64,000 nucleotides of DNA from Prescottella sp. R16 (lineage in GTDB: Bacteria; Actinomycetota; Actinomycetes; Mycobacteriales; Mycobacteriaceae): NCBI RefSeq assembly GCF_030656875.1, contig NZ_CP130943.1, forward strand, positions 3,844,001-3,908,000, in the 5' to 3' direction. The notes under the pieces were generated by a model. The model was not told the DNA's origin, ran no database searches, and was given only the letters and a program-made list of their open reading frames with translations. Shown here one piece after another: positions 25,745 to 41,802 of this stretch. Both the position numbers and the translations under genes were made by a program. Position 1 is the stretch's first letter. The number at the start of each line of letters is the position of its first letter.

Positions 25745-26353
25745 TCACCGCAGCGACGCCAGTACCCCGCTGCCGCCGGGCCAGTTGCCGTGCAGGGCGG
25801 GCCCGGCGGCTGTGTCGAGAGGCCGGTGGTGCACGACGAGTGTCGTGCCGGTGGCGTCGACGACGGTGTCAGTGCCGTGGACTTCGACGTGCAGACGCGC
25901 CGTGTCGGGCACGACGACGCCCGGTGCGCCGCTTCCCGACACGTGCACGTGGTTCGGGATCTTGCGCGGGTCACCGCCGTCGACGTGTACGTACTGGTCC
26001 ACTTCGTGTCCGGCATCGACGATCGCCGCGAGCAACTGCCGAACGTACACGGGGTCGGTGGTGCCGTCGTGGACGTAGCGGCGCCCGAGCACCGAATGGT
26101 CCATCTCCGCGATCACTGTGGCACCGGCGAGCGGCGCCGACCGGTAGGTCAGCGGTATCTGGTAGACGGTGCCGTCGGCGTCACGCACGAGGTGTGTCTC
26201 GATGCCCACCTCACCGGCCGGGTCGTCGAACCGGAACGCACCGATCACCTCGACGGGGGCCGACGCTGCGGGCGCGTACGGCGCCACCGGTAGCCAGGCT
26301 GCGAGCAGTTCGGGTTTCGTCGGCGACAGTGTCGCGTCGTACAGGAGTGCCAT
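25745..26353 (-). CDS. Maltokinase N-terminal cap-like domain protein
   Basis: A 202-residue stand-alone protein resembling the N-terminal cap of maltokinase and the corynebacterial CG0192 group. Typical segments: MALLYDATLSPTKPELLAAWLP, FRFDDPAGEVGIETHLVRD, YQIPLTYRSAPL and MDHSVLGRRYVHDG. The kinase lobe is absent. Role unknown; perhaps glycogen or trehalose metabolism. A TACGAT hexamer at 26361-26366, 7 nt before the ATG, suggests a leaderless mRNA. Confidence 0.85.
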   Translation of the reverse strand: MALLYDATLSPTKPELLAAWLPVAPYAPAASAPVEVIGAFRFDDPAGEVGIETHLVRDADGTVYQIPLTYRSAPLAGATVIAEMDHSVLGRRYVHDGTTDPVYVRQLLAAIVDAGHEVDQYVHVDGGDPRKIPNHVHVSGSGAPGVVVPDTARLHVEVHGTDTVVDATGTTLVVHHRPLDTAAGPALHGNWPGGSGVLASLR

Positions 26354-26360
26354 GCGGCAG

Positions 26361-26366
26361 ATCGTA
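26361..26366 (-). promoter_or_regulatory. -10 hexamer for leaderless cap-domain gene
   Basis: TACGAT on the minus strand, 7 nt from the ATG at 26353. Confidence 0.45.
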
Positions 26367-26444
26367 GCGCCGCAGCGAGCCGGCAACAGGGCCGTGGCCG
26401 GGCGGCCCGCACAGCGGATCACCCGGCCACGAATGCCTGACCGG

Positions 26445-26549
26445 CTACTGCGTCGGATCGGGCTCCGGTGTCTGACCGTCTCCGGACGAACCCAGGAACG
26501 CCAGCAGCTTGTTGATGATGCCCAGGAAGCCATCGAGTTCGGACGACAT
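26445..26549 (-). CDS. 34-residue amphipathic peptide
   Basis: A short ORF too small for routine gene calls. The ATG has a strong ribosome binding site (GGGAGACACC immediately upstream). Residues 3-20 (SELDGFLGIINKLLAFLG) would form an amphipathic helix, followed by an acidic, Pro-rich tail SSGDGQTPEPDPTQ. No signal peptide. Size, acidity and helix recall the small PorA/PorH outer-membrane channel peptides of corynebacteria, but there is no sequence proof of homology. Situated between the cap-domain gene and the DUF488 remnant. Confidence 0.5.
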   Translation of the reverse strand: MSSELDGFLGIINKLLAFLGSSGDGQTPEPDPTQ

Positions 26550-26693
26550 GGTGTCTCCCATCTGTCGGTGTTCTTTCTCCGACGCCCCGGCGGGGCGTGT
26601 GTGATCTTGTACCCAGGGGCCCTCGGCCCGTAAACACTTCACTCGCAAAAAGATTCACGCGCAGCCTGACGTGGGCTGTGAGAGCCTGGACCG

Positions 26694-27036
26694 GTGACGT
26701 TGTTCTCAGTGGGTCACGGACGCCTCACCTGCGAGGAACTGAGCGGGCTCCTGCGCTCGGCGGGAATCGAATCCGTCGTCGACATCCGGCGTTTCCCGGG
26801 AAGCCGCCGGCCTCGACCTGCTGCTGGAACGGGCCCGGACGTCACCGACCGTGATGCTGTGCAGCGAAAGTGTGTGGTGGCGTTGCCATCGCCGGATCGT
26901 CGCCGACGTCGCCGTTCTGCTGCGGGGCGAGAACGTACAGCACATCATGCCGAACGGCCGCTGCACCGAACACGAACCGGCCGCCGGCGCCCGGGTGCAG
27001 GACAGGCAGGTGTACTGGGATCTCCTCCCGTCCTGA
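26694..27036 (+). pseudogene. DUF488 gene with internal deletion and frameshift
   Basis: The first 30 codons (VTLFSVGHGRLTCEELSGLL ... VVDIRRFPGSRR) are the start of a DUF488 protein. From about 26805 the matching continues in another frame as AAGLDLLLERARTSPTVMLC, then SESVWWRCHRRIVADVAVLL to a stop at 27036. The middle of the protein (roughly 50-60 residues) is missing and the frame changes at the junction near 26797-26808. Neither frame alone gives a full protein, so the gene is broken. Related intact proteins are about 150-180 residues. Confidence 0.8.
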
Positions 27037-27040
27037 AACG

Positions 27041-27087
27041 CCGAATGTCACATGCGTTCAGTCCGACTGAACGCATGTGACATTCGG
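27041..27087. terminator. Convergent terminator, palindrome D
   Basis: A perfect palindrome: 23-bp arms (27041-27063 and 27065-27087, core GAATGTCACATGCGTTCAG) around one central base. It starts 4 bp after the DUF488 remnant and ends 18 bp before the purA stop. It has no U-tract and could form a cruciform. Confidence 0.75.
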
Positions 27088-27105
27088 TCACACACAGTGG
27101 TGGTG

Positions 27106-29302
<2,197 letters not shown>

Positions 29303-29338
29303 CGGCGGGCGGCCCGGTCCTCCCGGATACTGGCAGGC

Positions 29339-30115
29339 ATGTACTCCGATTCCCGGACCCGGTCCGCGGTGGTCCGTCCGAGTCCCGTGTTCCTCGGTAT
29401 CGTCGCGGTCGCCGTCGTCGGCGGTGTCCTCGCGTGGCGGGCGGGCAGTGATGTGTCGTCCGGCCGGATCGGGGTGTTCCTGCTGGTCGTGGCGGGCTGG
29501 GTGGTCACACTGTGCCTGCACGAGTTCGCGCACGCGTTCGTGGCGTGGCGGGCCGGCGACCACGACGTCGTCCTGCGCGGCTATCTGACACTCGATCCCC
29601 GCAGGTACACGCAGCCGCTGCTGTCGATCGGGCTACCGGTGCTGTTCCTCGCACTCGGCGGTATCGGTCTGCCCGGTGGCGCGGTGTCCCTGAACACCTG
29701 GTCGATGCCGCCCCGCACCCGGACGCGGATCGCACTGGCCGGTCCGGCCGTCAATGCGGTCGCGGCCGTCGTACTGCTCGGGATCATTCGTGTCCTCGGT
29801 GTGGACAGCGAGCACCGGGTGTTCTGGTACGGCCTGAGTTTCCTGGCGTTCCTGCAGGTGATGGCGACGATCCTGAACCTGCTGCCGGTGCCGGGACTGG
29901 ACGGCTATGCGGCGCTCGAGCCGCACCTGACGGCGTCCACCCGGGCCTCGCTCGACAAGGTGAAGCCGTACGGTCTGCTGCTGCTCATCGCACTGCTGTT
30001 CGTGCCGCAGATCAATACCGCGTTCTTCGATGCGATCTACGCGGTCTTCGGACTGTCCGGTATTCCGGACGTGTACGCGGCGTTCGGCAGCTATCTCATG
30101 CAGTTCTGGCGCTGA
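29339..30115 (+). CDS. Site-2 protease family membrane metalloprotease
   Basis: A 258-residue M50 protease homologue (Rv0359-like) with about six membrane spans. Zinc motif HEFAH (in VTLCLHEFAHAFVAW, residues 60-64) and second motif NLLPVPGLDGYAALEP supply the metal ligands. Such proteases cut transmembrane substrates such as anti-sigma factors; no substrate is suggested here. Follows the Rv0358-like gene as in M. tuberculosis. Confidence 0.9.
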   Translation: MYSDSRTRSAVVRPSPVFLGIVAVAVVGGVLAWRAGSDVSSGRIGVFLLVVAGWVVTLCLHEFAHAFVAWRAGDHDVVLRGYLTLDPRRYTQPLLSIGLPVLFLALGGIGLPGGAVSLNTWSMPPRTRTRIALAGPAVNAVAAVVLLGIIRVLGVDSEHRVFWYGLSFLAFLQVMATILNLLPVPGLDGYAALEPHLTASTRASLDKVKPYGLLLLIALLFVPQINTAFFDAIYAVFGLSGIPDVYAAFGSYLMQFWR

Positions 30116-30126
30116 CCGGCCACCGT

Positions 30127-30178
30127 TGACCGCACCGGCCCCGGTCCGCACGGTGTCGGGCCGAGGCGGGTGCGGTCA
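30127..30178. terminator. Convergent stem-loop E
   Basis: Arms TGACCGCACC (30127-30136) and GGTGCGGTCA (30169-30178), with further GC-rich pairing inside (CCGGCCCCG with CGGGCCGAGG), between the M50 protease gene and the chorismate mutase gene; the right arm includes the latter's stop codon. Confidence 0.55.
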
Positions 30179-30481
30179 CATGGCACGACCGAGACGCCCC
30201 CGCCCGAGCCGGAGCAGCAGCAACGCGAGCGTGTGCCCCTCCGGCCCCAGGTCGTCGAATCGCGACAGCACATCCATCTCCCGGGTGTGCACCAGTCGGG
30301 TGCCGCCGTCGTGCATGCGCATCTCACCGATCAGGCGGGACAGTTCGGTGCGCCGCTGGATCGCCACGAGGATCTGTTCGTCCAGGAGGTCGATCTCACC
30401 GCGGAGTTGCTCGATGTCGACGGCCGTCCGACGATCGGCCGCCAGGCTCGTCGACACGTTCGAAACCTGTGCGCTGGTCAT
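30176..30481 (-). CDS. Chorismate mutase, AroQ type
   Basis: A 101-residue cytoplasmic chorismate mutase converting chorismate to prephenate for Phe and Tyr. The all-helical core is visible: IEQLRGEIDLLDEQILVAIQRRTELSRLIGEMR with the conserved Arg residues, like M. tuberculosis Rv0948c, whose activity rises in complex with DAHP synthase. TAGCGT at 30488-30493 lies 6 nt before the ATG. Confidence 0.9.
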   Translation of the reverse strand: MTSAQVSNVSTSLAADRRTAVDIEQLRGEIDLLDEQILVAIQRRTELSRLIGEMRMHDGGTRLVHTREMDVLSRFDDLGPEGHTLALLLLRLGRGRLGRAM

Positions 30482-30542
30482 GTCTCCACGCTAGGTACGA
30501 GTGCTCGCGGGAGTCTAGGTAGTTCACTACCCGATCCGACGG

Positions 30543-31463
30543 TCACGGTCGGGCGAGTGCCGTCACCCAGCCGTGCAGCGCGTCCGACCGCAGCGCCGAC
30601 GCGTGCCGCTTGCCCAGGGCCTCGCACACCGGGCCCGGTTGCCCCGTTCCGACGACCCGGCCGTCGACCTCCGTCACCGGGGCCACCCCCGCCGACGTGC
30701 CGGTGACGAACACTTCGTCGGCGATGTACAGCTCGGTGAGGTCGACGGTCCGCTCGACGACCGGGATGCCGTCCTCGGTCGCGAGGGTCAGCAGGGTGCG
30801 CCGGTTGATGCCGTCGAGGATGTCGCACGAGACGTCGGGAGTGATCAGGGTGCCGCCGCGCACCAGGAAGATGTTCGCGGCACTGAGCTCGCACACGTGC
30901 CCGGCGCCGTCGAGGAAGATCGCGTCGTCGTAGCCGGCGTCGATCGCGTCCTGCTTCGCGAGCACCGAGTTGACGTACGCGCCGTTGACCTTGGCGCGCG
31001 ACGGGATCGCCGAATCCGGGATGCGCCGCCACTGGCTGGTCTTCAGGCGCATCCCGTCCTGCGGGACGATCGGGACGGCGTCGTAGACGAACATCGAGAC
31101 GACGGTCCGGCAGCCACGGACCCGGGTGCCGGGAATCGACTCGTCGACGTGCACGGTGGCACGCACGAACACGTCCGACGTGGGCGCGTTCGCCGTCACG
31201 AGTTCGGTTGCCGCGGAAACGAACCGGTCGAGATCCCAGTCGTCGTCGAATCGGTCGATACCGATGATGCGGCACGACTCGACGAGCCGACGGAAGTGGT
31301 CGGCGAGACGGAACGCGGTACGCACCGGGCCTTCGACGTGCACCGGGAAGACGGTGTAGACGCTCAGCCCGTACAGGACGGCCGACGTGGCGACGCCCAG
31401 GGTCGCGTCGGACGCGGGCACGAGCCGGTCACCGTAGTAGACGTGTGGATACGGGATCGCCAT
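30543..31463 (-). CDS. Class IV aminotransferase (branched-chain/D-amino acid type)
   Basis: A 306-residue fold type IV PLP aminotransferase. The Schiff-base lysine is K158 (SRAKVNGAYVNSVLAK); LDGAGHVCELSAANIFLV and VFVTGTSAGVAPV are the typical Glu and phosphate-binding segments. Closest to branched-chain aminotransferases of the IlvE group, though D-amino acid transaminase or another activity is possible. A TAGCAT hexamer at 31472-31477, 8 nt from the ATG, suggests leaderless expression. Confidence 0.87.
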   Translation of the reverse strand: MAIPYPHVYYGDRLVPASDATLGVATSAVLYGLSVYTVFPVHVEGPVRTAFRLADHFRRLVESCRIIGIDRFDDDWDLDRFVSAATELVTANAPTSDVFVRATVHVDESIPGTRVRGCRTVVSMFVYDAVPIVPQDGMRLKTSQWRRIPDSAIPSRAKVNGAYVNSVLAKQDAIDAGYDDAIFLDGAGHVCELSAANIFLVRGGTLITPDVSCDILDGINRRTLLTLATEDGIPVVERTVDLTELYIADEVFVTGTSAGVAPVTEVDGRVVGTGQPGPVCEALGKRHASALRSDALHGWVTALARP

Positions 31464-31569
31464 GCCCGACGATGCTAGCGACGGCGCCGGGGCCGGAAAA
31501 GCGAATTGTTCCGCGCACCATCGTCTCGTCCTCCCACCACCACCGCCACCCGCCCGGCACACTGTGCCC

Positions 31570-32532
31570 ATGCTGCATCTGCGGATCCTCTCCCCCACCG
31601 ACCTCACCGACGAGGCCGTCCGCATTCTCGAGGCCGAACCCGCGGTGAGCGGGCTCGCGGTGCTGCGGGGTGCCGCGATCCGGCCCCGCGGCGATCTCGT
31701 CCACGCCGACCTCGCGCGCGAGGTCGCCAACGACGTGATCGAGCAGCTGCGCGGGACCGGACTCCATCACCGCGGCACCATCGAGATCGAACCGGTTCCC
31801 ACCTGGCTGTCGCGCAGCGGGCTGGACGCCGAAGTGAGCAGCCCCGGCAGCAGCGCCGACGCCGTCGTGTGGGCCGAGGTCGCGCAACGCTCCTACGACG
31901 ACGTCGAACTGAACTGGACGTACCTGAGCTTCATGTCGATGGCGACACTCCTGGCGGGGATCGCGATCATCACCGACTCGCAGATCCTCGTCATCGGCGC
32001 GATGGTCCTCGGCCCCGAGTTCGGGGCGATCGCCGCGCTCGGCGTCGCCCTGGTCAAACACCGGTTCGTGCTGCTGGCCACGGCGGTCCGCACGCTCGTG
32101 TTCGGGTTCCTGGCCGCGATCGCGGTGGCGACGGTCGCCGCGCTGGTCGGCCGCCTACTGGGCTGGGTGACGATCGACGACGTCACCGGGCCGCGGCCTG
32201 AGACGGCGTTCATCTACACGCCCGACAAGTGGTCGTTCATCGTCGCGGTGATCGCAGCCGCGGCCGGGGTGCTGTCGCTGACGTCGTCGAAGCTCGGCGG
32301 CCTGTCGGGGGTGTTCATCTCGGTGACGACGGTGCCGGCCGCCGGCAACATCGCGCTCGGTATCGCGTTCGGTGCCGGGCACGAGATCTTGGGCAGTTCA
32401 CTGCAATTGGTTCTCAACCTCGTCGGCATGGCGATCGCCGGGTGGGCGACGTTGGCCCTGCAGCAGAAGGTGTGGTCCCGGGTGTCGGTGCGCCGCGCCC
32501 GCGCCCTCGACCACCGCCGTCGCATGCTGTGA
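31570..32532 (+). CDS. DUF389 (TIGR00341-like) membrane protein
   Basis: A 320-residue protein: a cytoplasmic N-terminal ferredoxin-like region (1-105, MLHLRILSPTDLTDEAVRIL) followed by six or so membrane spans, starting LNWTYLSFMSMATLLAGIAIITDSQILVIGAMVLGPEFGAIAA, the DUF389 signature. Function unknown. Ends 20 bp from the convergent cobalt-enzyme operon, with no hairpin in between. Confidence 0.87.
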   Translation: MLHLRILSPTDLTDEAVRILEAEPAVSGLAVLRGAAIRPRGDLVHADLAREVANDVIEQLRGTGLHHRGTIEIEPVPTWLSRSGLDAEVSSPGSSADAVVWAEVAQRSYDDVELNWTYLSFMSMATLLAGIAIITDSQILVIGAMVLGPEFGAIAALGVALVKHRFVLLATAVRTLVFGFLAAIAVATVAALVGRLLGWVTIDDVTGPRPETAFIYTPDKWSFIVAVIAAAAGVLSLTSSKLGGLSGVFISVTTVPAAGNIALGIAFGAGHEILGSSLQLVLNLVGMAIAGWATLALQQKVWSRVSVRRARALDHRRRML

Positions 32533-32552
32533 CGTTCCGGACGCACACACCG

Positions 32553-32885
32553 TCAATCGCGTTCGAGTCTCGCCCGGATCTGGTCCATCTTTGCACGAAG
32601 TTCGTCCTGGCCGACGATGCCGCGGTCGAGGAAGGTGTGCGCGGTGGTGATCGCGGACCGCGAGTGGACGGGGAACTCGCTGTAGACGGTTTCGCCCAGC
32701 TCGTCCTCGGCGTGCCGGCGTTCGAGGTTGTCCCATGCACCGCGCCACGAGAGGCACTCGCACGTGGCCTGCATGGCCGATTCCCACGGATCCGGCTTGC
32801 GCTCGATGTCGTCGAAATCGCCGGCACGTCCGGTTCCCGGCTGCAGCGTCCGCAAGATGATCTCGTAGCCCTGGGGCGCGGTCAT
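32553..32885 (-). CDS. Cobalt-enzyme activator (P15K/NhlE-like), paralogue of the beta subunit
   Basis: A 110-residue protein, last gene of the operon, where thiocyanate hydrolase and Co-type nitrile hydratase operons carry their maturation factor. It resembles the operon's own ScnB: CECLSWRGAWDNLERRHAED against CECLAWRGAWNAEMRRRAEV, then LGET and a shared C-terminal helix pattern DEL-x(5)-D-x-IRARL. Such activators hold the catalytic subunit while cobalt is inserted and Cys residues are oxidised, then are swapped for the real beta subunit. Here it lacks the first ~35 residues of ScnB. ATG overlaps the scnC stop (ATGA). Confidence 0.8.
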   Translation of the reverse strand: MTAPQGYEIILRTLQPGTGRAGDFDDIERKPDPWESAMQATCECLSWRGAWDNLERRHAEDELGETVYSEFPVHSRSAITTAHTFLDRGIVGQDELRAKMDQIRARLERD

Positions 32886-33580
32886 CGGGCACCTCCGGCG
32901 GAGGGCGCCGTCGAGGCGTCCCAGTCGGCGGAGGGTAGTGCCACTCCGATCATCGTGTCGCGTGTGACGATCTTCTCGAGTTGCTCCTCCGACCACCCCT
33001 CGGTGCCCTCGGGTCGCATGGGCATCACCATGAACCGCGACTTCTGGTTCGAATCGTGCACCCGTACTTCCACATCGGAGGGGAAGTGCAACCCGAACTC
33101 GGCGAGAACCTCGCGGGGACGACGCACCATCCGTCGTCGGTAGTTCGGTGTCCGATACCAGTCGGGGGACATGCCGAGCACGGGCCGCGGGTAGCACGAG
33201 CACAGCGTGCACACGATCACGTTGTGTACCTCGGGTGTGTTTTCGAGGACGTAGAAGAAGGTGTAGTCGCTGGGGGTGCCCGATCCCGTCGGGTCCCTCC
33301 AGTCGATGCCGACTTCCTTGCACGTCTCGGTACCGTTCTCCAGCAGGCGCTTCTTGAATTCCGGGTCGGTCCACGCCTTGGCAACCAATTTGGATCCGCC
33401 CGAGGGGCCGATCGATTCGGCCCATTCGGAGAAGCGCCGGTGGTCTTCCGCGGAGAAAAGTCCCTTCTCGATGGCGAGTTCTCGCAGGGCGAGTTCGAGG
33501 ACCTCGAACTCGCTGATCTCCTCCGAAGCCTCTATGGGAGCGTGCGGGTCACTGTCCGGACGGCCGTGTGAATCGCTCAC
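32882..33580 (-). CDS. scnC: Cobalt-containing catalytic subunit, thiocyanate hydrolase gamma / nitrile hydratase alpha
   Basis: A 232-residue subunit. The claw motif V-C124-T-L-C127-S-C129-Y binds non-corrin Co(III); Thr after the first Cys is the cobalt-type signature (Ser in iron enzymes). SEFEVLELALRELAIEKGLF with SAEDHRRF, CTLCSCYPRPVLG, SPDWYRTPNYRRRMVRRPRE and VLAEFGLHFPSDV read like thiocyanate hydrolase gamma and less like nitrile hydratase alpha (CTPWPVLGLPPNWYK). Reaction: SCN- to COS and NH3, or nitrile to amide. GTG start has AGGAGGA 5 nt upstream, overlapping the scnA stop. Confidence 0.88.
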   Translation of the reverse strand: MSDSHGRPDSDPHAPIEASEEISEFEVLELALRELAIEKGLFSAEDHRRFSEWAESIGPSGGSKLVAKAWTDPEFKKRLLENGTETCKEVGIDWRDPTGSGTPSDYTFFYVLENTPEVHNVIVCTLCSCYPRPVLGMSPDWYRTPNYRRRMVRRPREVLAEFGLHFPSDVEVRVHDSNQKSRFMVMPMRPEGTEGWSEEQLEKIVTRDTMIGVALPSADWDASTAPSAGGAR

Positions 33581-33588
33581 TTGTCCTC

Positions 33589-33891
33589 CTACGTGTCGGT
33601 TCGTCCGGCGGGCCGCAGCCAGCCCTCCGCACATTCGGTCTCGAGTGTGTCGACGTCGCATCCCGTGTAGCGCGGCCACAGGTCGGTCTGCCTGAACCGG
33701 ACGACGTAGAACGGCTCCTTGCGGCCGGTCTCGACCTTGTCGAATGCCTCGTCCTCCGGAATCACCCATTCGGGGCGGTGCTCGACGACGACGCCCTCCT
33801 GCCCACGCACGAAAGCTTGTGTGCGGGTGTGGAAGAGGCTCGTCTGATTCTTCACGACCACACGGTCGCCGATCTCGAACTTGGCGGTCAT
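33589..33891 (-). CDS. scnA: SH3-like subunit, thiocyanate hydrolase alpha / C-terminal half of nitrile hydratase beta
   Basis: A 100-residue beta-barrel subunit equal to the C-terminal half of a nitrile hydratase beta chain: FEIGDRVVVKNQTSLFHTRTQAFVRGQEGVVV, then PFYVVRFRQTDLWPRY. Being encoded apart from the N-terminal half is the feature of three-subunit enzymes (thiocyanate hydrolase, toyocamycin nitrile hydratase). ATG overlaps the scnB stop by 4 bp. Confidence 0.87.
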   Translation of the reverse strand: MTAKFEIGDRVVVKNQTSLFHTRTQAFVRGQEGVVVEHRPEWVIPEDEAFDKVETGRKEPFYVVRFRQTDLWPRYTGCDVDTLETECAEGWLRPAGRTDT

Positions 33892-34322
33892 CTCCGTTCC
33901 TCCCGAAGGCGTGCACGTACCTCGTCGACGCGGTCGCAGAGCTCGTCGAGAGGGATGAGGCCCTTGTCGACCATCACTTTCGCGGCGACGGTGAGCCAGC
34001 GGGCGTAGTACGGGTACCCGAAGTACTGCGTCTCACCGAGATCGACCTCGGCGCGGCGCCGCATCTCGGCGTTCCAGGCACCCCGCCAGGCGAGGCATTC
34101 GCAGGTGACGTAGGTGTTCATCTCCCATGCCTCCTCCTCTTTCTCGAGGTACTCGACGGGGAGGGCCGACTGTCCCCCGACGTCGTGCAGGACGTGTCTC
34201 AGCACGGCGTATTGCGCATTGGTGATCGTGTACGGGGAATCCTGAACGTCGTGTTCGGCCGGAGCGATCTTGGCCAGACCGTCGGTGAGTTTCTGGAATC
34301 GGGCCTGATTCGCGGTGGTCAT
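33888..34322 (-). CDS. scnB: Thiocyanate hydrolase beta-like subunit (N-terminal half of nitrile hydratase beta)
   Basis: A 144-residue helical subunit. YTITNAQYAVLRHVLHDVGG, CECLAWRGAWNAEMRRRAE (residues 74-92) and LGETQYFGYPYYARWLTVAA match the N-terminal domain of nitrile hydratase beta / thiocyanate hydrolase beta. In the known enzymes a conserved Arg pair of this subunit contacts the oxidised cysteines; R88-R90 are the obvious candidates here. ATG 34322 has GGGAG upstream and lies 65 bp after cbtA. Gene order B-A-C equals Thiobacillus thioparus scnBAC. Confidence 0.85.
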   Translation of the reverse strand: MTTANQARFQKLTDGLAKIAPAEHDVQDSPYTITNAQYAVLRHVLHDVGGQSALPVEYLEKEEEAWEMNTYVTCECLAWRGAWNAEMRRRAEVDLGETQYFGYPYYARWLTVAAKVMVDKGLIPLDELCDRVDEVRARLREERR

Positions 34323-34387
34323 GGAGGTCTCCCTTCCCTGGAGGGCTGGGTGCATTCACATGTTCCGAATTCTCGTCGGTGCTCCTC

Positions 34388-35203
34388 CTACAGTGGCGTC
34401 GTCCCCGCCGTCCTGTCGTTCACGGCGACGGGGGCGATCCTCTCGGATTGCGTTGTGCGCTGTGCCCGTTCGGTGAGGACGGCGAAAGCGAGCCCGAGAA
34501 CGAGCCAGAGTGTGGCCTGTGTCGCCATCACCGACACCCGGAACTCCCACAGCAGGGTTGCGGGGAAGTTGTCGCCGACTTCGTTCACGGCCGGCAGCAG
34601 GAGGTAGCCGGCAGTCACGATCACCAGGAACGTCAGTATCGAGGCAGCGACGGGAACGGTGCGATATCTGTGTGCGACAAGTACCTTCGCAACATATCCC
34701 GCAGCGCAGACCGCGAACAGGCCGAGTACCAGCGCCGCCGCCCACAGCCAGGTTCGCTGACCGAGCGTGTCCGGATCCCCTACAGCCGGGGGATCGGCCG
34801 GGTATTTGAAGAACGGCACCGCCTCGATCGCGAGCCAGCCACCGCCGGCGAGGCAGAGCGCGAGAAGTGGACCGGGCAATGCGACGAACCGCCGCGCACA
34901 GTACGCGACCACCCCGAAGATCGCTCCGATCGCGAGGCCCGCACCGGTGGTGGCCAACAACAGTCCCGCCCGCTGACCGTCCCGCGAGACGAGTGCGTCG
35001 CCGTCGTGCGAATGTGCGGGCGTTCCGGGCTCGTGTTCGTGCTGCGCGGGGACGGTCGGAGGGGCCGATTCCTCGAGCTCGACGGCCGCTGCAATGTGTG
35101 GTTCTCCGAGCGTGAACGCCACTGCTCCGGCCAACAGGCCGGCGAGCAGACCCGCGAGCAGGCCTCGCAGCACCAGATTCTTCAGCGTCCCGGCTAGTGG
35201 CAC
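34388..35203 (-). CDS. cbtA: CbtA cobalt transporter subunit
   Basis: A 271-residue membrane protein with about six spans. The first span (LVLRGLLAGLLAGLLAGAVAFTLGEPHI) and the extracytoplasmic His-rich loop HEHEPGTPAHSHDGD (55-69), a probable Co2+ entry site, are CbtA features. CbtAB are usually found with cobalamin genes; here they feed the cobalt enzyme encoded downstream. GTG start overlaps cbtB by 10 bp. Confidence 0.88.
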   Translation of the reverse strand: MPLAGTLKNLVLRGLLAGLLAGLLAGAVAFTLGEPHIAAAVELEESAPPTVPAQHEHEPGTPAHSHDGDALVSRDGQRAGLLLATTGAGLAIGAIFGVVAYCARRFVALPGPLLALCLAGGGWLAIEAVPFFKYPADPPAVGDPDTLGQRTWLWAAALVLGLFAVCAAGYVAKVLVAHRYRTVPVAASILTFLVIVTAGYLLLPAVNEVGDNFPATLLWEFRVSVMATQATLWLVLGLAFAVLTERAQRTTQSERIAPVAVNDRTAGTTPL

Positions 35204-35388
35204 GGGAGCCCCATGAGGTGGCGGCCGTCGTGCATCAGCTCGTGCATGTACATACCGGTGCGCGAGACAGCACCCTGGTCGAATCCCACGAGATAGAGAG
35301 CGAGCAAGGCGAGGAGCACCACACCGACTGCGACGAGCGCGATACCGATGGATTCGATTGCCCGGTCGGGGCCGTGGACGAGAGTCAT
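35194..35388 (-). CDS. cbtB: CbtB cobalt transporter subunit
   Basis: A 64-residue single-span protein (SIGIALVAVGVVLLALLALYLVGFDQG) with the characteristic C-terminal metal-binding tail MYMHELMHDGRHLMGLPCH (His49, 53, 57, 64). First gene of the operon; GGAGGAAAC precedes the ATG. Confidence 0.88.
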   Translation of the reverse strand: MTLVHGPDRAIESIGIALVAVGVVLLALLALYLVGFDQGAVSRTGMYMHELMHDGRHLMGLPCH

Positions 35389-35817
35389 GTTTCCTCCAGA
35401 ATCATGTCTGGCGAGAACCGGCCGATACGACCCGGCCGAAAGTGGCGTGGGAGCGCTCGTCGTTCGGGCGCACCTCCAATTATCCGAGGCGACCGTAACA
35501 CTGCAGCCCTCACCGGATATCGATTTCGAGAATCAACGATCACACCCACCCACAGGGCGGGTTCTTCGAAGAAACTGCAGATCCAACGGGTTTCGGACCG
35601 CTCGGCGCCGCTCACGCAAAACGGAGAAATTCACGAATTGGACCGACCTTCTCGCCGACATTTCACCCGAAGTAGAACCTTTACTCACAGCAGGGCTTTT
35701 CGAGTAGAAAATCTATATTTCACGACGAGACTCCGCTCGGTGCGCAATCTCGACGAACTCTGTACGGCTACGCACAATTCCGCGGAAGACGTCGGTGGCA
35801 GCCTGCACACTGGGTGC
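35389..35817. promoter_or_regulatory. 429-bp divergent intergenic region of the cobalt-enzyme operon
   Basis: The longest gene-free stretch in the window and visibly AT-richer than its surroundings. It must hold the cbtB promoter (a GATAAT-like hexamer on the minus strand at 35479-35484 is the best candidate) and that of the PPOX gene (TATATT around 35712 on plus). No cobalamin-riboswitch core, terminator or ORF was recognised. Confidence 0.5.
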
Positions 35818-36279
35818 ATGGCAACCTGGCAGGAGTTCACCGAAGCAGCCCCGGCACTGGCCGAGGCCGTCCACGCGCGGCTGACCGCGCACCGGCACCA
35901 CGTCCTGGCGACGCTGCGGGCCGACGGCTCACCCCGGGTGAGTGGCACCGAGATCGACCGGCGGGACGGCAGGCTGATCCTCGGCTCGATGGCCGGCGCC
36001 CGCAAGGTGGCCGATCTGCGCCGCGACCCCCGGTTCGCACTGCACACCAATCCCGGCCACCACGACATGGTCGGCGGCGACGCCAAGATCAGTGGGCGGG
36101 CACGCGAGCTCGTCGGCACCGAGAAGGCGGCGATCACCGACACCTATCCGGAGGAGATCGGCCCCGCCGACGTCTTCGTCCTCGACATCGACGAGGTGAT
36201 CCTCACGACGCTGGGGGACGGCCGGATGCACATCGACCTGTGGCGGCCGGGCACCGACGTCGTCCGCTTCACCCGGTGA
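35818..36279 (+). CDS. PPOX-family (FMN/F420-binding split-barrel) protein
   Basis: A 153-residue pyridoxamine 5'-phosphate oxidase-like protein. VHARLTAHRHHVLATLRADGSPRVSGTEIDRRDGRLILGSMAGARKVADLRRDPRF is the family's cofactor-binding core. Such small actinobacterial members often use F420, but the cofactor cannot be told from sequence alone. Ends 3 bp before the convergent CDF gene. Confidence 0.85.
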   Translation: MATWQEFTEAAPALAEAVHARLTAHRHHVLATLRADGSPRVSGTEIDRRDGRLILGSMAGARKVADLRRDPRFALHTNPGHHDMVGGDAKISGRARELVGTEKAAITDTYPEEIGPADVFVLDIDEVILTTLGDGRMHIDLWRPGTDVVRFTR

Positions 36280-36282
36280 ACG

Positions 36283-37218
36283 TCACCAGGTGAGGTCCTC
36301 CTGGCAGCGCGATCCCTCGCTGCCGGACTCGACCTGCACGGTCGCGTGGCCGAGTCCGTGTCCGTCGAGCACGGTCTTGGCGGCGGCCAGTACACGCTGC
36401 GAGTCGGTGGTGTCGGAGGCCATCGTCAGGTGGACGGTGGCGACGTCCATGCCGGTGGTGAGCGTCCACACGTGCAGGTCGTGGACGTCGGCGACACCGG
36501 GCAGTGCGTGCAGGTCGCCGCGGACGGCGTCGACGTCGATGTGTGCGGGCGACGCCTGGGTGAGGATCCGCAGTGCCGCGCCGGCGAGCTTGAGGGCCCG
36601 CGGCACCACCCACAGCGAGATCAACACACCGACGACGATGTCGGCGTACGTCCAGTCGAACAGCACCAGCGCGAGGCCCGCGAGGAGGACGCCGACGCTG
36701 CCGACGGTGTCGGCGAGCACTTCGAGGTAGGCGCCGCGGACGGCGATCGAGTCCTTGGCGTCGGCGCGCAGCATCAGCATGACGACGACGTTGGCAGCCA
36801 GACCGGCGAGCGCGGTGAGCATCATCGGGAGGCCGGGGATGTCGGGGGCGTGCCCGATCCGGCCGATCGCCTCGTACATGATGAACGCGGCGACACCGAG
36901 CAACAGGACGGCGTTGGCCATCGCGGTGAGGACCTCGGCGCGATGCCAGCCGAACGTGCGGGCAGCGACCTTGGATCCCTGCCGGGCCAGTAGCAGCGCG
37001 GTGAGCCCCATCGACATTCCGACGACGTCGGTGAGCATGTGGCCCGCGTCCGCGAGGAGGGCGAGCGACCCGGTCACCAGCGCGACGACGACCTCGAGGA
37101 CGAGGAAGCCGAGCAGGATGACGAGCGCGACCACCATCTTGCGAATACGTGTCGGCGACGGACCGGCACCCCCGGCGCTTGCGGTGTTGCCGTGACTGTG
37201 CCCGTGACCTGCACCCAT
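36283..37218 (-). CDS. Cation diffusion facilitator (Zn/Co exporter)
   Basis: A 311-residue CDF exporter with an N-terminal His-rich MGAGHGHSHGN, six membrane spans, and the transport site: LLADAGHMLTDVVGM (H-x3-D, residues 59-63) paired with AYLEVLADTVGSVGV (D-x3 pattern near 163). The C-terminal cytoplasmic domain ends VHDLHVWTLTTGMDVATVHL. H/D residues at the site suggest Zn2+, perhaps Co2+. A metal-regulator-like inverted repeat lies at 37248-37267. Confidence 0.92.
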   Translation of the reverse strand: MGAGHGHSHGNTASAGGAGPSPTRIRKMVVALVILLGFLVLEVVVALVTGSLALLADAGHMLTDVVGMSMGLTALLLARQGSKVAARTFGWHRAEVLTAMANAVLLLGVAAFIMYEAIGRIGHAPDIPGLPMMLTALAGLAANVVVMLMLRADAKDSIAVRGAYLEVLADTVGSVGVLLAGLALVLFDWTYADIVVGVLISLWVVPRALKLAGAALRILTQASPAHIDVDAVRGDLHALPGVADVHDLHVWTLTTGMDVATVHLTMASDTTDSQRVLAAAKTVLDGHGLGHATVQVESGSEGSRCQEDLTW

Positions 37219-37247
37219 GATCAGCCTCCCTCGACGGTCGGCCCATC

Positions 37248-37267
37248 ATATGCACACATTCGCATAT
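37248..37267. promoter_or_regulatory. Candidate ArsR/SmtB-type operator upstream of CDF gene
   Basis: Half-sites ATATG (37248-37252) and CATAT (37263-37267) separated by 10 bp, 30-50 bp upstream of the exporter ATG. This resembles operators of ArsR/SmtB metal sensors. No such regulator gene is in the window. Confidence 0.4.
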
Positions 37268-37278
37268 ATGAAAACCCG

Positions 37279-38439
37279 TCAGTGGTCGGGCCGGTACGCC
37301 GGATTCGGAACCGTCGGCGGCAACGTCGCGATCGCCGAGATCCGGCCGAGCCCCGTCACCTGCAGCAGATCCACCAGGAGCGAGCGGAGCTGCGCGAACA
37401 CGACCGTCGCGGAGATCCCGGCATTCTCGACGAGCGACGGCTTCATCCCGGACGACACCGTCCGCAGTGCCCGCGCCGCCTCGGCCTGGTCCGGCTGCTC
37501 CCCCGGATCCGCGAGGATCATCCGCCGCAACACCCCGACCGCGTGCGACAGCTTCTCGATCTGGTCGACCAACCGTGGGTCGAGGATCTCGTCGTCCCGC
37601 ACCAGCGTCAGCGAACGCCGCGTGAGCACCCGGATGTTGCGCATCGCGTTGTCGATGGGGTCCGCGGTCGCCGTCAACCGCTCCAGCCGCGCCCGACTGC
37701 CCCAGTACATCGGCGACACCCGGCTGACCTCACGCCCACCCGACAGATTGCTGCGCAGCGAATCGATCGACGACTGCGTGTCCCGGGCACGGCGCAGCGC
37801 CGCCTCGATGGGTTTCGGATCGTTCGCGATCAACCCGTCCGCGACCAGGTGGAGCACCTCGGACGCGGTCGCCAGGATGCCCGCCGCGTCCCGACGAGCC
37901 CGCCGCACCGGATGCGTCGGCACCACCGCGACCACCAGGATCCCGACGACACCACCGACGAGGGCATCGATCATGCGCTCGATCCCGGCCACGTCACCCG
38001 GCGGCAGCAATGTCGCGACCAGCACCGCGGACGTGCCGGCCTGCATCGAGAAGATCGGCCCGGACCCGATGAGCACAGCCGTGCTCATCGCGAGGGTGAC
38101 GACCAGCGTGATCTGCCACGGTCCCGTGCCGATCACCGAGATCAGCAGATCACCGACACCGATCCCGACGGTCACCCCGCACACCAGTTCCACCGAACGG
38201 CGCATCCGGGCACTCAGCGACAGACCGAGGGACACCACCGCCGCGATCGGCGCGAAGAACGGGCGTGGATGGCCGACGATCGTCGTCGCCACGAACCATG
38301 CGATGCCCGCGGCCAGCGCACACTGCAGAATCGGCAGCGCCGAGACCCTCAGGCGGCGGAGCGACGCCACCGCCTGGTCCCGGCCCACCACCGGACGCGG
38401 AACGAATCGGCTAGCCGAGGCCAAGGGCTTCGGCGGCAC
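37279..38439 (-). CDS. FUSC-family (aromatic acid exporter-like) membrane protein
   Basis: A protein of about 386 residues with an N-terminal FUSC block of six spans (CALAAGIAWFVATTIVGHPRPFFAPIAAVVSLG, AGTSAVLVATLLPPG, ALVGGVVGILVVAVVP) and a long helical cytoplasmic domain (180-370). Resembles Rv2571c, of unknown substrate. The start is uncertain: GTG 38439 overlaps DUF3151 by 29 bp; TTG 38424 and GTG 38394 are alternatives. Confidence 0.85.
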   Translation of the reverse strand: MPPKPLASASRFVPRPVVGRDQAVASLRRLRVSALPILQCALAAGIAWFVATTIVGHPRPFFAPIAAVVSLGLSLSARMRRSVELVCGVTVGIGVGDLLISVIGTGPWQITLVVTLAMSTAVLIGSGPIFSMQAGTSAVLVATLLPPGDVAGIERMIDALVGGVVGILVVAVVPTHPVRRARRDAAGILATASEVLHLVADGLIANDPKPIEAALRRARDTQSSIDSLRSNLSGGREVSRVSPMYWGSRARLERLTATADPIDNAMRNIRVLTRRSLTLVRDDEILDPRLVDQIEKLSHAVGVLRRMILADPGEQPDQAEAARALRTVSSGMKPSLVENAGISATVVFAQLRSLLVDLLQVTGLGRISAIATLPPTVPNPAYRPDH

Positions 38440-38827
38440 GCGGATCGCTGTCCTCGAGCAGATCCAGGCAGCGGGCGTACTCGTCGTTCTCGCCGATGGC
38501 CTTCGCGGCCTTCGCGAGCGCTGCGACACAGCGCAGGAAGCCCCGGTTCGGCTCGTGGCTGTAGGGCACCGCGCCGAAGCCCTTCCACCCGTTGCGACGC
38601 AACTGGTCGAGACCACGGTGGTAGCCGGTGCGGGCATACGCGTACGCGGTGATGGTGCGACCGTCGGCGAGCGCGGCCTCCGCGAGATACGCCCACGCGA
38701 TCGACGCGGTGGGATGGTCGGCGGCAACCTTTTCCGGGTCCGCATGGTTGAGCAGTTCCGACTCCGCCTCGTCGTCACCGGGAAGAAGCGTGGGCTGCGG
38801 GCCGAGAAGATCACCGAAAGACGTCAT
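38411..38827 (-). CDS. DUF3151 protein (Rv0360c-like)
   Basis: A 138-residue soluble protein conserved near fba in actinobacteria: TSFGDLLGPQPTLLPGDDEAE, ASIAWAYLAEAALADGRTITAYAYARTGYHRGLD (TPR-like helices) and GWKGFGAVPYSHEPNRGFLRCVAALAKAA. Function unknown. A TAACCT hexamer at 38835-38840, 7 nt before the ATG, suggests leaderless expression. Confidence 0.88.
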   Translation of the reverse strand: MTSFGDLLGPQPTLLPGDDEAESELLNHADPEKVAADHPTASIAWAYLAEAALADGRTITAYAYARTGYHRGLDQLRRNGWKGFGAVPYSHEPNRGFLRCVAALAKAAKAIGENDEYARCLDLLEDSDPRAAEALGLG

Positions 38828-38834
38828 AGTGTCC

Positions 38835-38840
38835 AGGTTA
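38835..38840 (-). promoter_or_regulatory. -10 hexamer for leaderless DUF3151 gene
   Basis: TAACCT on the minus strand, 7 nt from the ATG at 38827. Confidence 0.45.
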
Positions 38841-38921
38841 CGTCCACTGCTGCGCCCGTTCGCGGCCACGGGCCGATAGGCTGCCCGTCGGTTGATCCGC
38901 TCCCCCACCGAGAGGCATCGC

Positions 38922-39449
38922 GTGCCCGACAACGACGACGTTTCCGCCCCCGCCACGACGGTCGGCCCCACCCGCATCGCCCCCGCTGCACCCACATCCA
39001 CCGCCGGGCGCGCACCCCGGTCCGGTGGGCGGCGCGGCTGGATCGTCGCGTCGACGATCGCGGTCGTCGGGGTCCTCGCCGCGATCGGCGTCACCGCTGT
39101 CGTCGTTCTCCGCGGCGGCACCGACGAGAACCGGGTGCGGGACACCGTCGACGAATTCGTGGCCGCCCTCGGATCGGGTGATCTGCCGGCACTGCAGGCA
39201 GCGACGTGCGGCACCCTCGCCGACTACTACCGGGACATTCCCCCCGCCGAGTTCGCCGACGTCCACCGCGCCGCCGTCGACCGCGGCAACGTTCCCGTCG
39301 TCACCAGCATCGACACCGTGCAGGTCACCGGGGACACCGCGATCGCCCAGGTCACGGCGCACACACAGGCCACCCCGGACGACGCGTCACCGCGCACGTT
39401 CGATCTGCGCCGCGTCGACGACACCTGGAAGGTGTGCGACCCGGCCTGA
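38922..39449 (+). CDS. Membrane-anchored NTF2-like protein (Rv0361-like)
   Basis: A 175-residue protein: Thr/Pro/Ala-rich cytoplasmic head, one membrane span (WIVASTIAVVGVLAAIGVTAVVVL, about 46-69) and an exported NTF2-like domain ending DDTWKVCDPA. Same plan as 10830-11252. Conserved between DUF3151 and fba as in M. tuberculosis. The GTG start has GAGAGG 7 nt upstream. Confidence 0.8.
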   Translation: MPDNDDVSAPATTVGPTRIAPAAPTSTAGRAPRSGGRRGWIVASTIAVVGVLAAIGVTAVVVLRGGTDENRVRDTVDEFVAALGSGDLPALQAATCGTLADYYRDIPPAEFADVHRAAVDRGNVPVVTSIDTVQVTGDTAIAQVTAHTQATPDDASPRTFDLRRVDDTWKVCDPA

Positions 39450-39466
39450 CCGGGCACGCCCGAAAA

Positions 39467-39529
39467 CGCGTTTCGCGCACGTACCGCGGTCCCCGACCGG
39501 GGAAACCGACGACACGTGCGCGAAACGCG
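39467..39529. terminator. Convergent terminator, palindrome family B copy 1
   Basis: Perfect 16-bp arms CGCGTTTCGCGCACGT (39467-39482, 39514-39529) around a 31-nt loop that holds a second small stem. Located between Rv0361-like and fba genes. Confidence 0.75.
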
Positions 39530-39565
39530 GTGGAACAAGCCACCGCCGAACGGGTGGCGCGGGCC

Positions 39566-40606
39566 TTACATTCCGGCGGACACCGAGCGACCGGCGGAGT
39601 GCAGGTCCTTGCAGGCCTCGATGACACGCTGCGTCATCGACGCCTCGGCCTTCTTCAGGTAGCTGCGCGGGTCGTAGACCTTCTTGTTGCCGACCTCGCC
39701 GTCGACCTTGAGGACGCCGTCGTAGTTGCTGAACATGTGCGCAGCGACCGGGCGGGTGAACGCGTACTGGGTGTCGGTGTCGACGTTCATCTTCACGACG
39801 CCGTAGCTGAGCGACTCCTCGATCTCCGACTTCAGCGAGCCCGAGCCGCCGTGGAAGACCAGGTCGAACGGCTTGGAGCCGGCCGGCAGGCCGAGCTTCG
39901 CGGATGCCGCGGCCTGACCGTCGGCCAGCACGGACGGCTTGAGCTTGACATTGCCCGGCTTGTAGACGCCGTGGACGTTGCCGAACGTCGCGGCCAGGAG
40001 GTACTGGCCGTTCTCGCCTGCGCCGAGGGCGTCGACAGTCTTCTCGAAGTCCTCGATCGAGGTGTACAGCTTGTCGTTGATGGCGTTCTCGACGCCGTCC
40101 TCTTCACCGCCGACGACGCCGATCTCGACCTCGAGGATGATGTTCGCAGCCTTGCTCAGCTTCAGCAGCTCCTGCGCGATCTGCAGGTTCTCGTCGATGT
40201 GGATGGCCGAGCCGTCCCACATGTGCGACTGGAACAGCGGGTTCTGCCCGGCATTGACGCGCTCCTGCGAGATGGCGAGCAGCGGGCGGACGAAGCTGTC
40301 CAGCTTGTCCTTGGGGCAGTGGTCGGTGTGCAGCGCGATCGTGACGTCGTACTTGGCGGCGACCACGTGCGCGAACTCGGCGAGCGCGACAGCACCGGTG
40401 ACCATGTCCTTGACACCCAGGCCCGAACCGAACTCGGCGCCACCGGTCGAGAACTGGATGATGCCGTCGCTACCGGCGTCCGCGAAGCCCTTGATGGCCG
40501 CGTTGATCGTCTCGGACGAGGTGCAGTTGATGGCCGGGAAGGCGAAGGAGTTCTCCTTGGCCCGAGCGATCATCTCGGCGTAGACCTCGGGAGTTGCGAT
40601 AGGCAC
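39566..40606 (-). CDS. fba: Class II fructose-bisphosphate aldolase
   Basis: A 346-residue zinc aldolase of glycolysis and gluconeogenesis. Zinc ligands in ALHTDHCPKDKLDSF and FHGGSGS; catalytic Asp in LHTDHC; KMNVDTDTQYAFTRPV is the substrate-phosphate and Schiff-type (NVDTDTQ) signature. Close to M. tuberculosis Fba (Rv0363c) over its full length. Confidence 0.96.
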   Translation of the reverse strand: MPIATPEVYAEMIARAKENSFAFPAINCTSSETINAAIKGFADAGSDGIIQFSTGGAEFGSGLGVKDMVTGAVALAEFAHVVAAKYDVTIALHTDHCPKDKLDSFVRPLLAISQERVNAGQNPLFQSHMWDGSAIHIDENLQIAQELLKLSKAANIILEVEIGVVGGEEDGVENAINDKLYTSIEDFEKTVDALGAGENGQYLLAATFGNVHGVYKPGNVKLKPSVLADGQAAASAKLGLPAGSKPFDLVFHGGSGSLKSEIEESLSYGVVKMNVDTDTQYAFTRPVAAHMFSNYDGVLKVDGEVGNKKVYDPRSYLKKAEASMTQRVIEACKDLHSAGRSVSAGM

Positions 40607-40736
40607 GGCGGCTGTCCTCCATGTGACGAGTCGGGGGCGCGACCGACTGACGGCGCGCCGGTGTGTCCATGCAGTATGGCAGGTACCGCGAGCCCCGACG
40701 ACTGCACTCGTTCGACCCGATGGTCCGATTCCCGGC

Positions 40737-40742
40737 TACCCT
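40737..40742 (+). promoter_or_regulatory. -10 hexamer for leaderless DUF368 gene
   Basis: TACCCT, 7 nt before the GTG at 40750. Confidence 0.4.
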
Positions 40743-40749
40743 GGCCGAC

Positions 40750-41724
40750 GTGACGACCGAGGCCCGCCCTGCGGCGAGAACGACGGCAGATACGACGACT
40801 CCACGACCGACCGCGTCCGCCGTGCTCGGCAATGCGGTCCGCGGTGGTCTGATCGGGGCCGCCGAGACGATCCCTGGCGTGTCCGGCGGAACGGTTGCCC
40901 TGGTCACAGGCATCTACGGCCGGTTGATCGCGTCCGCCAAACATCTCACCGACGTTCCGCGGGCGGTGGCCACGCGCGCAGACTGGCGGTCTGCGGCACG
41001 GCGGGTCGACTGGTGGTTGCTGGCACCGGTGGCGGCGGGCATGCTGCTCGCCGTCTTCGCACTCGCCGGTGTGATGGAGTCGTTCGTCAGCGACCAGCCG
41101 GTCGCCTCCCGGGCCCTGTTCCTCGGCATGATCGCCGCGTCGGTGACCATCCCGTTCCTCGAGATCACCCCGGGCGCCCTGCGGTCCACCCGAGCGAAGG
41201 GTCGCGCGCTCCTCTTGTTCACACTGACGGCCGCCGCCGTCTTCGCGCTGACCTCGCTGCCGCGCAGCGAATTCACCGATCCGCCGCTGCCACTGGTCTT
41301 CGTGGCGGCCGCGGTCGCAGTGTGCGCCCTCGTCCTGCCCGGCGTCTCGGGTTCGTTCTTCCTGCTCGTGGTCGGCCTCTACGCCCCCACGATGGCCGCG
41401 GTCGACAGCCGGAATCTGCCATACCTGGCGGTGTTCGCGCTCGGCGCCCTGATAGGGCTGGTGACGTTCGTCCGCGTGCTCGAATGGCTACTCGAACGCC
41501 ACCACACCGCCGCCATGGTCGCCGCGGCGGGCCTCCTGCTCGGTTCGCTGCGCGCGCTGTGGCCGTGGCAGACCGACACCGGAGGGCTCCTCGGGGTGGG
41601 GGACGACGGGCCGCTCGCGCTCGGGCTGTTCCTACTCGGCGCCGCGGTGGTCGGAGTGGTCGCGCTGGTCCAGCGCCGGGCGTACGCTGCCGACGCCCGC
41701 GCCTCGCTCCCCACATCGGACTGA
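40750..41724 (+). CDS. DUF368 membrane protein (PopT-type polyprenyl-phosphate transporter)
   Basis: A 324-residue protein with about eight spans. Two DUF368 signatures are seen as an internal repeat: GGLIGAAETIPGVSGGTVALVTGIYGRLI (about 30-58) and ALVLPGVSGSFFLLVVGLY (about 195-214). DUF368 proteins have been shown in other bacteria to return undecaprenyl phosphate across the membrane; here the carrier would be decaprenyl phosphate. Two DedA genes follow. GTG 40750 is chosen because of the -10 element 7 nt upstream; ATG 40720 is possible. Confidence 0.88.
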   Translation: MTTEARPAARTTADTTTPRPTASAVLGNAVRGGLIGAAETIPGVSGGTVALVTGIYGRLIASAKHLTDVPRAVATRADWRSAARRVDWWLLAPVAAGMLLAVFALAGVMESFVSDQPVASRALFLGMIAASVTIPFLEITPGALRSTRAKGRALLLFTLTAAAVFALTSLPRSEFTDPPLPLVFVAAAVAVCALVLPGVSGSFFLLVVGLYAPTMAAVDSRNLPYLAVFALGALIGLVTFVRVLEWLLERHHTAAMVAAAGLLLGSLRALWPWQTDTGGLLGVGDDGPLALGLFLLGAAVVGVVALVQRRAYAADARASLPTSD

Positions 41725-41802
41725 CGCCGAGCGGGCGGAGGAACACCCGACCCGCAAATCCACGGGCCCACGCCGGCCGGTGAGTCGGTACTCTTGACGG
41801 TC

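Follow-up and report, generated by a model that had tools for sequence, protein, structure and literature searches.

The window analysed here is a 64,000-nucleotide stretch of the genome of Prescottella sp. R16 (contig NZ_CP130943.1, positions 3,844,001 to 3,908,000), and this report concerns six open reading frames (ORFs) on its minus strand, which run from 35388 to 32553 in the order cbtB-cbtA-scnB-scnA-scnC-activator (Table 1). All six are open, each lies where a first-pass annotation made from the sequence alone had placed it in a six-gene operon, and each is supported by a Pfam match. Judged by sequence, the genes probably encode a three-subunit enzyme of the thiocyanate hydrolase type, with CbtBA for cobalt import and an activator for metallation; the reaction is most likely the hydrolysis of thiocyanate (SCN-) to carbonyl sulfide (COS) and ammonia, for nitrogen or detoxification.

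The genes are tightly packed at four of the five junctions, by overlap or with fewer than 10 nucleotides (nt) between them: cbtB and cbtA overlap by 10 nt, scnB/scnA and scnC/activator each share an ATGA, and 8 nt separate scnA from the GTG of scnC. The exception is cbtA/scnB, where 65 nt precede the scnB ATG; this start was taken at 34322, and an alternative upstream start at 34355 is possible. The cobalt claw VCTLCSCY and the other ScnC motifs quoted in the first-pass annotation were found in the sequence, CTLCSC being followed by YPR, and the claw cysteines are invariant across 12 aligned gamma sequences. The activator was assigned by its Pfam match as an NHase_beta_N-type gene after scnC. 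Scans for sigma-70 promoters and terminators returned no hits.

Table 1. Genes of the operon and the region upstream of it (window coordinates; NHase, nitrile hydratase).
Feature	Coordinates	Strand	Length and evidence
cbtB	35194..35388	-	64 amino acids; His-rich C-terminal HELMHDGRHLMGLPCH tail; PF09489 52.7 bits (cut-off 27)
cbtA	34388..35203	-	271 amino acids; GTG start; predicted cobalt transporter membrane subunit; PF09490 224.1 bits (cut-off 30.7)
scnB-like (thiocyanate hydrolase beta; N-terminal half of NHase beta chain)	33888..34322	-	144 amino acids; PF21006 (NHase_beta_N)
scnA-like (thiocyanate hydrolase alpha; C-terminal half of beta chain)	33589..33891	-	100 amino acids; PF02211 (NHase_beta_C)
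scnC-like catalytic subunit (thiocyanate hydrolase gamma)	32882..33580	-	Probable GTG start; NHase_alpha 261.6 bits
P15K-type activator	32553..32885	-	110 amino acids; scnB-related; PF21006 33.6 bits (cut-off 21.5); overlaps scnC stop
Region upstream of cbtB	35389..35817	.	No match to cobalamin riboswitch or to GTTGTG-N7-CACAAC palindrome

Identity of the enzyme

The scnC product passes the NCBIfam profile for thiocyanate hydrolase gamma (TIGR03887; 388.2 bits, cut-off 291.45) and fails that for nitrile hydratase alpha (TIGR01323, nitrile_alph; 228.6 bits, cut-off 249.85). The thiocyanate hydrolase structure 2DD4, which we take to come from Thiobacillus thioparus (an attribution consistent with PMC5458468), gives the best PDB match for ScnC (2DD4_C, E 1.8e-89) and for the scnA-like product (2DD4_A, E 2.9e-16), and the only match at E≤0.001 for the scnB-like product (2DD4_B, E 1.2e-38). 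Because all three sequences match solved structures, we regard the fold of the enzyme as settled. The window gamma is 63% identical to that of T. thioparus, and among the 120 of 7996 homologues listed, the names given in the sources for close homologues are thiocyanate hydrolase gamma. With the T. thioparus enzyme the window shares three subunits, a split beta chain, the cobalt claw and an arginine at gamma position 136 (2DD4_C numbering); that position is tryptophan in the 3VYG chain and in 15 of 16 canonical cobalt nitrile hydratase loci. An activator, P15K, is known for T. thioparus, and in the window a candidate activator gene of the NHase_beta_N type follows scnC. The window lacks the two-subunit make-up and the frequent amidase neighbour of canonical nitrile hydratases, as the beta chain is split and no amidase-motif ORF longer than 250 amino acids lies nearby.

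Part of the argument made in the first-pass annotation, that the split beta chain and CSCYPR point to thiocyanate hydrolase, lacks support in that form. Among 37 further loci (L087-L123), the claw reads CSCYPR in 36 and CSCYPK in one, and separate scnB- and scnA-type frames are present in all except L092, which lies on a cut contig; the three of these loci that were scanned (L088, L089 and L101) pass nitrile_alph and fail TIGR03887. Position 136 is likewise arginine in split enzymes that branch outside the thiocyanate hydrolase clade. We therefore rejected a split beta chain or an arginine after CSCYP as proof of thiocyanate hydrolase, both being found in enzymes that score as nitrile hydratase. 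Toyocamycin nitrile hydratase, ToyJKL, is also a three-subunit enzyme. The Streptomyces locus L088 was considered as a toyocamycin-type control and set aside, since its neighbours, inspected by eye in translation, do not resemble a nucleoside antibiotic cluster; it was kept merely as a split enzyme. A divergent split enzyme (L224, genome G023) has the claw CTLCSCYPI and a long branch in the tree.

Phylogeny of the gamma subunit

Gamma trees were built from chosen subsets of 83 rows (quick) and 52 rows (careful). In the 83-row tree, the window and 2DD4_C fall in one 49-row clade with a Shimodaira-Hasegawa-like approximate likelihood ratio (SH-aLRT) support of 99, and 19 of the loci L087-L123 placed in this tree all lie outside it; in the 52-row tree the thiocyanate hydrolase clade, including the window and T. 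thioparus, has support of 100/98. The stem shared by this clade is long (0.52-0.54 across trees), with canonical nitrile hydratases outside. In neither tree does ScnC branch inside the two-subunit nitrile hydratases, the placement that had been named beforehand as speaking against its identification; together with the two profile results, the grouping with the T. thioparus enzyme bears out the thiocyanate-hydrolase type. Within the clade of the 52-row tree, T. thioparus and a fused actinobacterial type (11 rows) form a sub-branch of their own that excludes the window. By these trees the window type is a sister lineage of the branch that holds the assayed enzyme.

Conservation and distribution

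Because gamma is kept at 90-95% identity in nine of the 13 other genomes of the genus, the operon is not a chance association. All nine congener loci (L124-L132) have the identical six-gene order, so that importer genes stand ahead of enzyme genes in 10 of 10 split loci of the genus, the window included. Another congener (G012) has a gamma match of 61%, in a locus (L133) of the fused scnBA type without cbt genes, and a gamma match is absent in G009, G011 and G013, three of the 14 genus genomes with the window's own.

Across 301 genomes of the family, TIGR03887 has a match in 104 and exceeds its cut-off in 81; of these 81 loci, 32 are split and 49 fused. Thus, enzymes of the thiocyanate hydrolase type, as judged by this profile, are common in the family. 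Both cbtB and cbtA lie within 2.7 kb upstream of gamma in 13 of the 32 split loci, among them L179, a short contig with cbtB-cbtA-cbtB ahead of scnB. A further 13 have cbtB alone within that distance and a cbtBA pair 3.7-5.8 kb upstream, and the remaining six, all of group g22, which includes Nocardia, have neither gene within 2.7 kb upstream. In all, cbtB adjoins the gene cluster in 26 of 32 split loci and in none of the 49 fused loci, a contrast that follows lineages and so does not amount to 81 independent observations; a few contigs end near the operon.

The fused enzymes of mycobacteria, Williamsia and others resemble that of the window in passing TIGR03887 and in an activator-type gene, which follows in nearly all fused loci. 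They differ in having scnB and scnA as one protein, in having no cbtBA within 2.7 kb upstream (49 of 49) and in branching together with T. thioparus, away from the window. Fused scnBA loci are widespread in actinobacteria (L052-L069, L133-L137, L139-L149 and others).

Evidence on the substrate

Amidase genes were sought by a motif scan of ORFs longer than 250 amino acids, not with a family model, over about 7 kb at canonical loci and mostly 13-17 kb at the others; some genomes are present twice (for example, L044 equals G035), so that the per-locus counts are not all independent. An amidase-signature ORF was found in one of 48 split thiocyanate-type loci (L151), 0 of 75 fused loci and 0 of 37 other split loci, as against seven of 16 canonical cobalt and five of five iron-type nitrile hydratase loci. 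No such ORF lies at 26001-42000 of the window. Of the two substrates that had been proposed, thiocyanate or a special nitrile, thiocyanate is the better supported, and the rarity of amidase motifs at split loci weakens the nitrile.

Proteobacterial scn relatives lie near cyanase and CbtA genes (L050) or CbiM genes (L076, L084), and hidden Markov model matches to CbtA also occur in L051 and L086. In L050 and L051 a gammaproteobacterial-type scn operon lies about 6.7 kb from CbtA, in L050 with cyanase and a LysR gene between. In Mycobacterium smegmatis, two genes that carry the annotations thiocyanate hydrolase beta and gamma are reported to rise 3.68- and 3.42-fold under nitrogen limitation (PMC4617892), and genes so annotated to rise about 2.4-fold in a PII mutant (PMC11001197). 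These M. smegmatis genes are presumably of the fused type.

The genome of the window encodes one beta-carbonic anhydrase, which matches 2A5V/1YM3 (presumably M. tuberculosis carbonic anhydrase structures) at E 2.4e-85 and the carbonyl sulfide hydrolase 3VQJ at E 3.7e-5. Given the far better match to the former, it is not clearly a COS-consuming enzyme.

Cobalt supply and CbtBA

The window copies of CbtA and CbtB meet the gathering scores of PF09490 and PF09489, and share with described CbtAB the family match and the His-rich CbtB tail; a CbtB with one segment and a His-rich C terminus is described in PMC3596284. CbtAB is described as tied to B12 synthesis in PMC2667541 and PMC3596284, whereas the window copy belongs to an enzyme operon and gave no match to the riboswitch. 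The presence of cobalt-uptake genes next to scn in T. thioparus and Tv. thiocyanodenitrificans was reported in 2017 (PMC5328954), and a pairing of cobalt uptake with scn genes is thus not new. The T. thioparus loci treated there have an ABC-type (ATP-binding cassette) cobalt transporter subunit, a NitT/TauT transporter and sulfur genes, as against CbtBA in the window. NiCoT transporters are named near cobalt nitrile hydratases in PMC7689651. Among the matches listed from open-licence PMC full text, no paper links CbtAB to the thiocyanate hydrolase/nitrile hydratase family, and the passages seen of three papers that hold both nitrile hydratase and cbtA (PMC2667541, PMC7142416, PMC3596284) draw no link between them.

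The canonical nitrile hydratase loci were hand-picked, as 20 places below the TIGR03887 cut-off and one inside L153. A cbtB or cbtBA lies within 2.7 kb of seven of the 16 cobalt loci (L212, L215, L217, L225-L228) and of none of the five iron-type loci. In these surroundings, cobalt nitrile hydratases (P. thermophila, 4OB1, and family relatives) resemble the window operon, as they do in superfamily, claw and activator; they differ in having two subunits, tryptophan in place of Arg136, amidase motifs, a separate clade and another CbtA lineage. The adjoining cbtBA is downstream in L212, L217, L225 and L228 and divergent in L227. The use of CbtAB beside the enzyme, as put forward in the first-pass annotation, is therefore real but not peculiar to this enzyme, and its comparison with rhodococcal nitrile hydratases was loose, the window genus (g1) differing from that of R. 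wratislaviensis (g23).

In a CbtA tree of 46 of 57 rows, which carries a long-branch warning, the five operon CbtAs of the window genus cluster together (SH-aLRT 98), separate from the distal copies of the same genomes, five nitrile hydratase-linked CbtAs make up a second clade (94), and the operon CbtAs of L150 and L151 lie outside both. The two separate clades suggest that CbtBA was recruited beside cobalt enzymes at least twice. A CbtB tree (54 of 70 rows, 60 columns) was mostly unresolved and is not relied on. A lone open cbtB lies directly upstream of scnB in L044, L138, L158, L159, L172-L178, L180 and L181, with cbtA in a second pair 3.7-5.8 kb away. Since cbtA occurs in these loci solely in the second pair, a role of CbtB on its own is suggested.

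Cobalamin riboswitches were called with RF00174 at its gathering score; the window was searched at 30000-40000 with E≤1. No match was found at any of the 16 enzyme-adjacent cbtBA copies (window, L124-L132, L150, L151, L212, L217, L225, L228), and riboswitch control of the window operon was dropped as a candidate, neither it nor L124-L132 having a match. Eleven of 20 distal or stand-alone copies had one (L044, L138, L158, L159, L177, L178, L180, L181, L240, L249, L250); those without were L232, L233, L238, L241-L243, the second copies of L131 and L132 and the first copy of L179. Eight of the loci with a lone cbtB were also searched, and none has a match beside that gene. Within the window genus only two of the seven distal copies examined have a match (L249, L250), which weighs against a tidy regulatory split.

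The operon CbtA is the only CbtA in the window genome (one match in a search of that genome), and neither NicO nor CbiM has a match there, yet CobN is present along with five cobalamin riboswitches over the gathering score. For this reason the operon importer may also serve B12. The earlier description of the module, with its own predicted importer, as self-contained calls for caution, given this possible second duty of the genome's sole CbtA.

All nine congener loci carry the palindrome GTTGTG-N7-CACAAC some 150-240 nt ahead of cbtB (six exact, two with one mismatch, one with two mismatches); it is missing upstream of the window cbtB. Searched with a stricter pattern, seven of the 14 genomes gave a single match apiece; six of these matches are at the operon, the seventh is in G009, a genome that does not have the operon, and a reversed control pattern gave no matches. 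The palindrome is a possible operator of a regulator. In 18 loci, the 350 nt preceding cbtB gave no match to a strict GlnR-type box (GNAAC-N6-GNAAC).

Interpretation and alternatives

In the working model that we consider probable, CbtB and CbtA, members of a family of predicted transporters, would import Co(II). The P15K-type activator would load cobalt into ScnC, where, by analogy with homologues, the CTLCSC claw would hold the metal; ScnA and ScnB, the halves of a nitrile hydratase beta chain, would complete the active site, and the holoenzyme would hydrolyse SCN- to COS and ammonia, either to supply nitrogen or for detoxification. Several observations weigh against this model. The CSCYPR motif and the split beta chain are not diagnostic by themselves, and the assayed enzyme belongs to the sister sub-branch (100/100), not to the window's own. 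The window CbtA scores 34.3 bits against the NCBIfam CbtA profile TIGR02458, far below its cut-off of 182.9. No clear COS-consuming enzyme was found in the genome, whose sole beta-carbonic anhydrase is only weakly like COS hydrolase, and neither a NitT/TauT transporter nor sulfur genes are among the eight window flanking proteins named by Pfam. Two congener operons appear damaged: in L131, cbtA is shortened (about 7547-8089), its main piece covering about half of the model with the second cbtA copy whole, and in L126, from a genome that is 79% complete, scnB is broken (about 5249-5694) into two pieces in different frames. Assembly error is possible in both.

A cobalt nitrile hydratase of three subunits, acting on a particular organic nitrile or on a compound derived from cyanide instead of on thiocyanate, would fit the shared superfamily, the split relatives outside the clade that score as nitrile_alph and the distinct sub-branch of the window. 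We consider this improbable, given the opposite outcome of the two profiles for ScnC, its place in one clade with thiocyanate hydrolase, on a long common stem, and the scarcity of amidase motifs nearby. There is only a slim chance that the operon is promiscuous or fading and has no dedicated substrate: three genus genomes have no gamma match, the upstream palindrome is missing in the window genome and two congener operons carry the apparently damaged genes described above, but all six frames are open in the window, the claw cysteines are invariant and gamma is strongly conserved in nine congeners.

CbtBA might also owe its place in the operon to B12 and not to the enzyme, its adjacency being a by-product of a neighbourhood that also holds cbtBA. 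In seven of the nine congeners another CbtA does lie 5-9 kb upstream of the catalytic gene (the G002 copy is on another contig, and extra matches in G003 are unlisted), and the cobalt inventory of the window genome, with its sole CbtA, no NicO or CbiM, and CobN, points the same way. This account is nevertheless unlikely in our view, since riboswitches accompany 11 of 20 distal but no enzyme-adjacent copies (though few distal ones in the window genus), the operon CbtAs of the genus form their own clade, the cluster is intact in the window genome, where it occupies another place on the chromosome, and canonical cobalt nitrile hydratases show a similar coupling with other CbtAs.

Under the thiocyanate hydrolase model, then, the enzyme is of a known type, and the new part would be a cobalt supply that bears no sign of B12 control. 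We offer, tentatively and as a scenario that may well be wrong, that after a duplication of CbtBA one of the two copies became dedicated to feeding cobalt to the enzyme, free of cobalamin-riboswitch control. In g23, which includes R. wratislaviensis, and in g21 the enzyme copy would have been reduced to its CbtB (13 of 32 split loci), which would imply that CbtB has a cobalt-handling role of its own; in the window genome, the other cbtBA would be gone and B12 may depend on the enzyme's importer; and canonical cobalt nitrile hydratases would have made a similar, separate recruitment from another CbtA lineage. CbtAB has so far been mainly a predicted transporter judged by its B12 neighbours. Natural pairs within one genome, one copy by a non-corrin cobalt enzyme and the other often after a cobalamin riboswitch, make testable both the division of cobalt between B12 and a metalloenzyme and the action of CbtB alone. 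If the activity is as predicted, these enzymes, common in relatives of Rhodococcus, Nocardia and Mycobacterium, may be an overlooked source of carbonyl sulfide in soil.

Chromosomal site of the operon

Congener operons adjoin OsmC and ClpC genes, and in L124, L127 and L130 a two-component system flanks them on the opposite side. The corresponding neighbourhood is present at 642-652 kb of the window genome (L260) with neither the operon nor a second cbtBA, and the window operon lies 3.2 Mb from it, at a new chromosomal site; among the window genes called, only those of the operon match congener loci. Relocation of the operon and loss followed by re-acquisition would both fit this pattern. A cation efflux (CDF) gene, which has no match beside the congener operons, lies upstream of the window operon on the same strand (36283-37218). 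The operon has a G+C content of 0.65 against 0.685 in its flanks, and the congeners show the same trend.

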